NCBI GenBank assembly: GCA_012519695.1
Contig: JAAYPT010000020.1
Location: forward strand, 1 to 37,897
Direction of reading: 5' to 3'
From: Clostridiales bacterium
GTDB taxonomy: Bacteria > Bacillota > Clostridia > Lachnospirales > Lachnospiraceae
Length of the DNA: 37,897 nt
Below, one piece after another: positions 10,756-37,822 of the stretch (the stretch's first letter is position 1; every line of letters begins with the position of its first letter). The notes beneath the pieces were generated by a model. It ran no database searches. It saw only the letters and a program-made list of their open reading frames with translations, and was not told the DNA's origin. A program made the translations under genes and the position numbers.

Positions 10756-10795
10756 AGAAACCGTAGAAAATTAAAACTTACGGTTTCTCTTTTTT
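10756..10795 (+). terminator. Rho-independent terminator after arcC
   Basis: AGAAACCGTA (10756-10765) pairs perfectly with TACGGTTTCT (10779-10788) around an A/T-rich 13-base loop, followed by C and six T residues. Confidence 0.9.
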
Positions 10796-10803
10796 GATTT
10801 ATT

Positions 10804-10812
10804 TGTTATAAT
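10804..10812 (+). promoter_or_regulatory. Extended -10 promoter at the head of the pyk leader
   Basis: TGT-TATAAT is a perfect extended -10 element; no good -35 box is visible. The predicted start near 10819 would give a leader of about 308 bases before pyk, beginning almost exactly at the hairpin 10820-10840. Confidence 0.6.
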
Positions 10813-10819
10813 ATGGACT

Positions 10820-10840
10820 GTAGTGTCTCTGTGACATTAC
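10820..10840 (+). other. 5'-terminal hairpin of the pyk leader
   Basis: GTAGTGTC (10820-10827) pairs with GACATTAC (10833-10840), with one G-T wobble, around TCTGT. It would be the extreme 5' end of a transcript from the promoter at 10804-10812, where it could protect the RNA. Confidence 0.45.
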
Positions 10841-10857
10841 GAATAAGTTGATATTCC

Positions 10858-10886
10858 TTGAAAATTCAAGGGTTTGAGCGTAGTAT
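10858..10886 (+). promoter_or_regulatory. Second promoter in the pyk leader
   Basis: TTGAAA (10858-10863), a 17-base spacer and TAGTAT (10881-10886). The -35 box lies inside the inverted repeat CCTTGAA/TTCAAGG (10856-10871). The predicted start, seven bases past the -10 box, is 10893, the first base of the structured element that follows. Confidence 0.55.
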
Positions 10887-10892
10887 AGGAAA

Positions 10893-11020
10893 GTGTCAAA
10901 AGGGACATACTGCAAAGCAGTATTGCCATATTGCACCGAATTGCATCTGAAAAACGAGTTTTTCAAGTGCAATTTAGTGCAATAATCACACATCACTTTG
11001 TGATGTGTGCCCTTTGACAC
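10893..11020 (+). ncRNA. Candidate structured RNA element: closing stem enclosing three hairpins
   Basis: The ends are complementary: GTGTCAAAAGGG (10893-10904) with CCCTTTGACAC (11010-11020), allowing one bulged A. Inside are three hairpins. Hairpin 1 is ATACTGC-AAA-GCAGTAT (10907-10923). Hairpin 2 is nested: TTGCAC (10931-10936) with GTGCAA (10977-10982) encloses TTGCA (10941-10945) with TGCAA (10968-10972), which encloses TGAAAAA-CGAG-TTTTTCA (10948-10965). Hairpin 3 is CACACATCAC-TTT-GTGATGTGTG (10987-11009) and abuts the closing stem. No ORF of note or T-run terminator is present. I do not recognise a known riboswitch, T-box, 6S, SRP or RNase P RNA in it. It may be an independent or leader RNA for pyk, or a MITE-like dispersed repeat whose ends are the closing stem; no clear target-site duplication is seen. 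Confidence 0.5.
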
Positions 11021-11034
11021 GTTAAATAGTTACG

Positions 11035-11106
11035 TTGCAAAATTTGAATTTTAGGAGTATTCTAAATCAGTTATCAAATTTTGATAGATAGATTGCAATG
11101 ATGCAA
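11035..11106 (+). promoter_or_regulatory. pyk-proximal leader with alternative stems
   Basis: CAAAATTTGA (11038-11047) pairs perfectly with TCAAATTTTG (11074-11083), enclosing TTTAG/CTAAA. TTGCA at 11093-11097 can pair with TGCAA at 11102-11106, just before the pyk ribosome binding site, or with the TTGCAA at 11035-11040. These pairings are mutually exclusive in part. The remaining bases up to 11126 hold the Shine-Dalgarno sequence (AGAGAGG). Confidence 0.4.
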
Positions 11107-11126
11107 AAGCAAAGAGAGGTAGAAAG

Positions 11127-12560
11127 ATGAAAAAAGAAAATCTGAGAAAAACAAAAATTGTCTGCACAATGGGACCTTCTACAGAAAAGGATGGCGTTTT
11201 AGAACAGTTAATGCTTGCCGGTATGAACGTTGCAAGATTTAACTTTTCACATGGTGATCATGATGAACAGATGGGACGTTTAGTAGAGTTAAGAAGACTT
11301 CGTGAGAAGTTAGGACTTCCAGTGGCTGCACTTCTGGATACTAAGGGACCAGAAATCCGTTTAAGAGAGTTCAAAGAAGGAAAAGTAAACTTAGTAAAGG
11401 GACAGACCTTTACCTTAACTTCTGAAGAAATCCAGGGTGATGAGACAAAAGTTTCTATCAGCTATAAAGAATTGGTAAACGATGTAAAGGTAGGAGATAC
11501 TATCTTAATCGATGATGGTTTAATTGAATTAAAAGTTAAAGATTTAACAAAGACAGACATCGTTTGTGAAGTTGAAAATGGTGGAAAAGTTTCTAACAAG
11601 AAAGGTGTTAACGTACCAAACGTAGACCTTACAATGCCTTTCATCAGTGAAAAAGACCACTCTGATATCGTATTTGCAGTAGAGCAGGATTACGATTTTA
11701 TCGCAGCATCTTTCGTTCGTACAGCAGATGACGTACTTCAGATTCGTAAGATTTTAAAAGAGAATGGAAATGATACAATTAAAATCATTTCTAAGATTGA
11801 AAATATGCAGGGTGTAAATAACATCGATGAAATCATCGAAGTATCTGACGGAATCATGGTAGCTCGTGGAGACATGGGTGTTGAAATTCCATTAGAAGAC
11901 GTACCTGTTATTCAGAAAATGATTATTAAGAAAGCAACTAAGGCTGGAAAGCAGGTTATCACTGCAACACAGATGTTAGATTCTATGATTAAGAATCCAA
12001 GACCTACAAGAGCAGAAGCAACAGACGTTGCAAACGCTATTTATGACGGAACAAGCGCAATCATGCTTTCCGGAGAAACCGCTGCTGGTGATTACCCTGT
12101 AGAAGCTGTTAAGACAATGGTTCGTATTGCAGTTCGTACAGAACAGGATATCAACTACAGATCAAGATTCAAACAGAGAGAGACTTTGGACAACCCAGAT
12201 ATTACAAATGCAATCTCTCATGCAACTTGTACAACAGCACATGACTTAAATGCAGCAGCTATTATCACAGTATCTAAGTCTGGTAGAACAGTACAGGATG
12301 TTTCTAAGTATCGTCCAGCTTGCCCAATCATCGGAGGAAGTACTTCTGAAAAAGTTTGCCGTCAGTTGAACCTTGCTTGGGGCGTTGTTCCAGTATTAGT
12401 TGATGTAAAAGAAGACATTGATGAATTATTTGATCATGCACTTGAAACTGCTGAAAAAGCTGGAGTTATCGAAAAAGGTGATATCGCAGTTTTAACAGCT
12501 GGTGTTCCACTTGGTGTATCCGGAACAACTAATATGATTAAGGTGCGTGTAGCAGACTAA
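11127..12560 (+). CDS. pyk: Pyruvate kinase
   Basis: A 477-residue pyruvate kinase, converting phosphoenolpyruvate and ADP to pyruvate and ATP in the last step of glycolysis. Motifs are TKIVCTMGPST at the start, ARFNFSHGDH (substrate-binding loop), LDTKGPEIR, SKIENMQG (containing the active-site Lys), MVARGDMGVEIP (containing the metal ligands), and TATQMLDSM followed by PRPTRAEATDVANA. The B domain lies at about 70-170 and the allosteric C domain at about 345-475. It ends at the normal C-domain boundary, without the extra phosphohistidine-like domain seen in Bacillus and some clostridial enzymes. GAGAGG precedes the ATG. Codon use differs a little from neighbours (more AAC, ATC and CGT), as expected for a highly expressed glycolytic gene. 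Its long structured leader (10813-11126) suggests RNA-level control. Confidence 0.97.
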   Translation: MKKENLRKTKIVCTMGPSTEKDGVLEQLMLAGMNVARFNFSHGDHDEQMGRLVELRRLREKLGLPVAALLDTKGPEIRLREFKEGKVNLVKGQTFTLTSEEIQGDETKVSISYKELVNDVKVGDTILIDDGLIELKVKDLTKTDIVCEVENGGKVSNKKGVNVPNVDLTMPFISEKDHSDIVFAVEQDYDFIAASFVRTADDVLQIRKILKENGNDTIKIISKIENMQGVNNIDEIIEVSDGIMVARGDMGVEIPLEDVPVIQKMIIKKATKAGKQVITATQMLDSMIKNPRPTRAEATDVANAIYDGTSAIMLSGETAAGDYPVEAVKTMVRIAVRTEQDINYRSRFKQRETLDNPDITNAISHATCTTAHDLNAAAIITVSKSGRTVQDVSKYRPACPIIGGSTSEKVCRQLNLAWGVVPVLVDVKEDIDELFDHALETAEKAGVIEKGDIAVLTAGVPLGVSGTTNMIKVRVAD

Positions 12561-27159: not shown

Positions 27160-27183
27160 ACGTTTTAGAAAACAAAATAAAGT

Positions 27184-27317
27184 TCTTCAGGGCAGGGTGA
27201 CTTTTTAAAAGAATTCCCGACCGACGGTGATACCACAATGTGGGCAAGTCCGTGAGCCATAATGGTAGGATATTGGTGCGAATCCAAAACCGACAGTACA
27301 GTCTGGATGAGAGAAGA
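27184..27317 (+). ncRNA. FMN riboswitch (RFN element) controlling ribU
   Basis: Conserved RFN blocks appear in order: CTTCAGGGCAGGGTGA, CCCGACCGACGGTGAT, AAGTCCGTGAGC, CCGACAGTACAGTCTGGATG and the closing GAGAGAAG. One peripheral stem (CTTTTTAAAAG) is longer than usual, and CCAC-AAT-GTGG forms a small added hairpin. A terminator lies downstream, so FMN binding is expected to stop transcription. Confidence 0.95.
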
Positions 27318-27344
27318 AGTGATATAGAACGATATGTAGATACA

Positions 27345-28037: not shown

Positions 28038-28065
28038 AAAGCAAAAATAAAAAGAGAATATAGAA

Positions 28066-28183
28066 ATCTTCAGGGCAGGGTGCAATTCCCTACCGGCGGT
28101 AAAGCCCGCGAGCACTAAGGTGCAGATTCGGTGAGCTACAAAGCAACTCCGAAGCCGACAGTATAGTCTGGATGAAAGAAGAT
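28066..28183 (+). ncRNA. FMN riboswitch (RFN element) controlling ribD-ribE-ribBA-ribH
   Basis: A canonical RFN aptamer: ATCTTCAGGGCAGGGTG, CCCTACCGGCGGTAAAGCCC, GCGAGC, GATTCGGTG, CCGAAGCCGACAGTA, AGTCTGGATGAAAGAAGAT. The two ends pair as the closing stem. A terminator hairpin follows 32 bases later, and ribU ends 28 bases before it, so this switch can also be reached by read-through from ribU. Confidence 0.96.
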
Positions 28184-28215
28184 GACAGGCATGAAAACTT
28201 ATGCGTGTTTTACTT

Positions 28216-37736: not shown

Positions 37737-37822
37737 GGAGAGGTGTCCGAGTGGTTTAAGGAGCTGGTCTTGAAAACCAGTGATTCCGAAAGGGACCGTG
37801 GGTTCGAATCCCACCTTCTCCG
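37737..37822 (+). tRNA. tRNA-Ser (anticodon UGA)
   Basis: An 86-nt class II tRNA. The acceptor GGAGAGG pairs with CTTCTCC (one G-T), discriminator G. The anticodon stem CTGGT/ACCAG holds TGA at 37771-37773. A long variable arm (GATTCCGAAAGGGACC region) and a T-loop GGTTCGAATCC are present, as expected for serine. CCA is not encoded. The 75 bases after it show no recognisable gene. Confidence 0.97.

Follow-up and report, generated by a model that had tools for sequence, protein, structure and literature searches.

A structured repeat upstream of pyk in a Lachnospiraceae genome is probably an old copy of a MITE-like element family with a folded core

Is the highly structured element of 128 nt upstream of pyk (pyruvate kinase) in a Clostridiales bacterium from the Lachnospiraceae a regulatory RNA or a mobile repeat? 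The element lies in contig JAAYPT010000020.1 (assembly GCA_012519695.1), from which we analyzed a stretch of 37,897 nt (the window). The initial annotation proposed either a structured RNA or leader, or a MITE-like dispersed repeat whose closing stem would be its terminal inverted repeats (TIRs). We consider a mobile origin probable (roughly 80%): the element would be an ancient member of a family of short, MITE-like transposons that are non-autonomous and share a core of 130 nt, which folds as a four-way junction on either strand.

The core spans positions 10893-11020 and comprises a closing stem and three hairpins, just as had been described. On the plus strand, the left arm of the closing stem (10893-10904) pairs with the right arm (11010-11020) through 11 base pairs, with one bulged A. 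Inside the stem are hairpin H1 (10907-10923, CTGC/GCAG type), a long central hairpin with small mismatches (H2, 10929-10984), and hairpin H3 (10987-11009, CATCAC/GTGATG type). A 366-nt fold adds an outer imperfect stem, whose left arm (10861-10883, perhaps an eroded TIR) pairs with a right arm at 11031-11052; these limits are approximate. The predicted minimum free energy of positions 10880-11035 is -62.9 kcal/mol, versus a mean of -31.3 kcal/mol for shuffled sequences (z = -9.07; 0/200 shuffles were as good). The opposite strand of the core folds equally well (z = -11.06; 0/200), and the core is also stable as single-stranded DNA (z = -8.61; 0/200).

Like the structured RNAs in Rfam, the element has a strong fold that is supported by covariation, but in the window it matches no Rfam family at gathering score, which bears out the initial impression that it belongs to no recognized RNA family. 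In evalue mode, positions 10780-11130 gave 11 matches, all of them well under the families' thresholds and mostly to microRNA models. The element is also without a gathering-score family at 14 related loci. The only such matches in the window and these loci lie elsewhere and are tRNA genes and two FMN riboswitches. The riboswitches are in the window (27179-27322 and 28062-28187), on the same strand and about 0.7 kb apart, and the window has a tRNA gene at 37737-37822 on the plus strand. A literature search, mainly of open-access papers, found nothing that describes this element family.

The element is flanked by pyk (11127-12560 on the plus strand, with Pfam domains PK and PK_C) and, upstream, by a gene of the amino-acid-kinase family, which may encode a carbamate kinase. 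By eye, the kinase gene is followed on the plus strand by a terminator-like inverted repeat with a T run (10757-10796), which is absent from the scan output, and then by TATAAT (10807-10812), with a weak -35 box. The TATAAT is conserved in two close relatives (G005 and G023). If it is the -10 box of a pyk promoter, then the element would fall in the 5' leader of pyk, and the conserved TATAAT suggests that it does. Our scan for consensus promoters omits this promoter and gives two other plus-strand candidates that are closer to the element, at 10858-10886 and 11014-11043.

Among 29 genomes from the genus (one pyk locus per genome, with two loci shortened by contig ends), the core is found at pyk in three: our genome (G000), G005, and G023. 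Their Pyk proteins are 94-100% identical. The copy in G005 has 91% identity to ours and the same direction. The copy in G023 is reversed between collinear flanks (84% identity over 127 nt), and its predicted fold is weaker (-51.7 kcal/mol, versus -59.9 and -63.6 kcal/mol in the other two). The outer arms vary in sequence among the three species, yet they pair in each predicted fold. None of these three close genomes has an empty pyk site. Neither position nor orientation before pyk is conserved, and the element is not a widely conserved regulator of pyk. For the proposal of a structured RNA or leader, the compensatory changes are there in abundance, but the conserved location before pyk is lacking.

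The element has relatives elsewhere in the same genome. BLASTN found three clear but weaker copies, and a covariance model (R1, built from 16 copies) found six diverged copies. The window copy scores 119.2 bits and is itself one of the training rows of the model. The six copies end 44-115 nt ahead of a predicted start codon, and the genes that follow them are pyk, asnA, and gyrA (here the copy lies in the gap after gyrB), together with genes for a PucR-type regulator, a glycogen debranching enzyme, and a glycosyltransferase. Covariance-model matches (E <= 1e-4) are present in 18 of the 29 congeneric genomes. The richest of these has 108 matches, or about 54 copies if each was matched on both strands; most copies are matched twice because the core is nearly palindromic. 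The core is 128-133 nt long across 79 matches, in a search that favors full-length copies.

In a family-wide sample, at least 3 of 150 genomes had matches, and in an order-wide sample, searched with a second covariance model, at least 3 of 392 did (our genome is included each time); these are lower bounds because samples of more than 40 genomes were searched with stricter filters, with 8 or 22 candidates each. The matches in G137 (family-wide) and G225 (order-wide) are weak and carry no weight in our conclusions. A DNA pattern run over genome contigs picked out 53 stretches, all from records titled Lachnospiraceae; several of these are presumably mouse-gut isolates. BLASTN with the window copy, together with one exact pattern, found no copy in phages, plasmids, or viral contigs.

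In many copies, the 130-nt core lies inside elements of about 195 bp that have separate TIRs. The closing stem is the base of this inner core and not a TIR, contrary to what had been proposed. In type A elements, TTTGAGTTTCCCCATTTT is found at both ends, and the total length is 193-197 bp in 50 of 65 pairs of TIRs. Exact flanking repeats of 8-12 bp accompany 33 of the 65 pairs (exactly 8 bp in 20); another 16 have repeats in this size range that differ at one base, while 13 have no repeats and 3 have repeats of 4-7 bp. Type B elements have GGGGCTGTCGCACTAA ends, which we take to resemble those of IS1182. Some type B rows lie inside palindromic sequence, and 12 of 38 appear, by eye, to lie inside a type A frame. 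A third kind of end, GGGATTTTGCAATGGAAT, is seen in one of our genome's own copies (C18). Among 92 sorted copies, 38 are type B, 19 are type A, and 35 are other, but this is not a census, as the loci were chosen by their match to the core, the ends, or a scan pattern. There is no type B core among the 16 rows of R1 (although row L018 includes a few end bases of type B), and the model gives many type B copies 84-107 bits. This implies that the core is truly shared by unrelated types of TIRs.

Not all copies are shared with close relatives. The C18 copy, in the leader of asnA, corresponds to an empty site in both G005 and G023. Another copy (C108) is absent from G005 and is a decayed remnant in G023, and C62 is absent from both, with the site rearranged. 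The copy between gyrB and gyrA is common to our genome and G023. In sum, the family has dispersed copies, TIRs (in types A and B and in C18), target duplications in type A with a mode of 8 bp, and empty sites for other copies in our genome, much as the idea of a MITE-like dispersed repeat would have it. Given the many copies and the empty sites in relatives, a mobile repeat explains the element better than an RNA that is specific to pyk. Of the signs of a mobile repeat, many copies and the lack of a conserved position before pyk hold for the family, but target duplications are found in type A and not at the window copy, which has no recognizable TIR either.

ERIC, BOX, RUP, Correia, and RPE are bacterial MITEs or short palindromic repeats. 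Our elements are likewise short, apparently non-coding, dispersed, and palindromic, with target duplications in the well-preserved copies. They appear to differ in that a folded core is common to elements with unrelated TIRs and outlives the ends.

Type A elements, which do not include the window copy, are mostly found 10-13 bp upstream of the -35 boxes of sigma-A promoters. We considered 62 distinct insertions (the 65 pairs minus L144, L135, and L122). Pairs of -35 and -10 boxes that match the consensus at 9 or more of 12 bases begin 11, 12, or 13 bp from the end of the element in 25, 17, and 9 of the 62, and 10 bp away in 4, versus at most 3 at every other offset up to 130, where one insertion may count at several gaps. 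With at least 8 matches required, 53 of the 62 insertions have a promoter at a gap of 10-13 bp and 9 have none. The promoter is on the H3 side in 24 of the 53 and on the H1 side in 21; in 8, the direction of the element is unreadable.

This resembles the p-MULT elements (TnGBS, ISLre2, and ISKra4), and in its choice of promoters p-MULT3 and ISKra4-type elements in particular. As described in PMC3942029, p-MULT elements have direct repeats of 8-9 bp, insert at a constant spacing ahead of the -35 boxes of sigma-A promoters, and use both orientations where their ends are almost perfectly complementary. The published distance is 13-17 bp (PMC3942029), whereas for type A it is 10-13 bp. Also, type A shows no gene within its ~195 bp, and no transposase is linked to it. 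The main text of PMC3942029 contains no word beginning with "mite". Type A is likely to be a short, non-autonomous addition to these promoter-targeting transposons.

What moves type A? ISLre2-type genes were found in 2 of the 14 genomes that we searched. Around them, there were no type A ends in one genome and a single 15-base site (up to 3 mismatches) in the other. The ISLre2 ends differ, which makes these elements poor candidates for the autonomous form of type A. A 1,410-bp pair of TIRs at L144 was rejected, as a false pair that spans host genes. Type A, like the other best-preserved types, is presumably mobilized by a DDE transposase that acts in trans; for p-MULT3/4 elements, the characteristic enzyme is a Mutator-type DDE transposase.

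The fold of the core is strongly conserved. Across 77 distinct copies, 97.5% of 3,458 cells are paired, and changes on both sides occur in 36 of the 45 pairs; none of 500 shuffles was as high, and controls with slid partners were 37-48% paired. Because the copies were aligned with the structure as a guide, the pairing looks somewhat better than it is, and the shuffles take no account of how the copies are related, but the difference is wide. Two-sided changes are seen in 8/8 pairs of the closing stem (helix 1) and 10/10 pairs of H3 (helix 5); H1 corresponds to helix 2 (97.5% of cells paired) and H2 to helices 3 and 4. Together with the 0/200 shuffles, this covariation rules out chance palindromes with near certainty. 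At orthologous sites (7 comparisons at 5 loci), the relative's fold was equaled by 0-4 of 1,000 simulations with random substitutions in each comparison, in a test that is biased towards copies that the model still finds (copies that have decayed, for example C108 in G023, are outside the seven). The core is still folded at sites without recognizable TIRs, such as pyk. The central hairpin also has a mismatched neck that is seen repeatedly: of the 35 copies classed as "other", the TCT/GAG form is the closest for 17 and its reverse complement for 6, and 12 are too diverged.

Nine loci have both flanks alike between genomes. Five loci seemed inverted, but on inspection by eye, two of these (L148/L230 and L095/L231) appear to be insertions that occurred independently, and a third (L049/L158) has only one orientation and contains a nested copy of type B. 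We put L112/L219 aside as well. Of the six usable loci, two are inverted: pyk and L050/L066. At L050/L066 (G011 versus G015), the reversal affects the core but not its central hairpin, whose direction with respect to the flanks is the same in both. Because the core there is less alike than the flanks (115/130 identical, versus 95-98%), this reversal is possibly due to replacement by another copy.

Given these inversions, could the element be a phase-variable switch (an inverton) that controls pyk? The in-place inversion in G023 would fit, but the fold is alike in both orientations, inversion is seen between species only, and outward promoters at the edges of the core exceed control spacings on one side of type A only (3/19). 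We consider an inverton very improbable. A host-used, cis-acting RNA deserves more weight. In this view, the fold would be transcribed as part of the 5' leader and would set the stability, processing, or translation of the pyk mRNA, and asnA, gyrA, and further genes would have acquired the same module in front of them. The location of all six copies in our genome shortly before start codons is consistent with this, as is the better retention of the fold at pyk and gyrBA than under random substitution. But either orientation is used, even at the single site before pyk; close species differ in which copies they have; most type A copies are upstream of the promoter and so outside its transcript; and only 3 of 29 genomes in the genus have the core at pyk. 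On balance, we think this explanation is unlikely.

Alternatively, the covariation might be purely mutational: template-switching between the arms of the palindrome during replication would copy changes from arm to arm and flip segments, so that the fold persists without selection. This would account for the clustered two-arm changes in the gyrBA copy, the outer arms at pyk that differ yet still pair, the inversion at pyk, and the reversed core of G011/G015 with its unreversed central hairpin. However, pure correction between arms should erase the mismatched neck of the central hairpin, which recurs, and the length of the core is nearly constant (in a search that, again, favors full-length copies). 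We view this as a tentative explanation that is more likely to be wrong than right.

We return to the MITE-like family, which is our preferred explanation. In the best-preserved types, the core is carried inside separate TIRs and would be moved by a transposase in trans. The window copy would have been inserted upstream of pyk before the three close species split; we infer this insertion from its kin, because the copy itself lacks a recognizable TIR and a target duplication, and close relatives show no empty site at pyk. Its outer repeats can no longer be recognized as TIRs, whereas the core is still folded, and the copy lies inverted in one species. That the fold is kept after the ends are worn is not what is expected of a dead transposon. 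Two processes may keep the arms complementary. One is selection on the fold, acting either at the host site or, at an earlier stage when the ends were still intact, for mobility; the other is mutation that uses one arm as the template for its partner. At its present site, the window copy is most likely a tolerated large hairpin in the leader, with a possible effect on the stability or processing of the pyk mRNA.

What seemed to be an unknown riboregulator of a central metabolic gene is thus reassigned to a family of mobile elements, which is a caution that covariation alone is not proof of a functional RNA. The family also provides a natural setting in which to weigh selection on structure against mutation templated by the palindrome. 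More speculatively, and we doubt it, the 130-nt core might be an independent genetic unit: a structured module that has hitchhiked into several unrelated transposon families, whose fold on both strands is independent of its carriers and which flips in place. If so, selection would act on the fold itself, for instance as a DNA cruciform that is recognized by a shared factor (of the host or of transposition), or as a strand-symmetric RNA.

A few other loci are worth recording. A weak, GC-rich, structured match from another genus (L036, 1501-1639; 34.7 bits) has GCTTCGCTTTTGCG repeats alongside and is probably a different repeat. Two type A elements, L167 and L171, are 111 and 121 bp long and have lost most of the core. 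Finally, genome G003 has two pairs of type A ends that are about 1.5 kb apart (L165, 265-1789, and L166, 215-1795), which are known from their ends alone.
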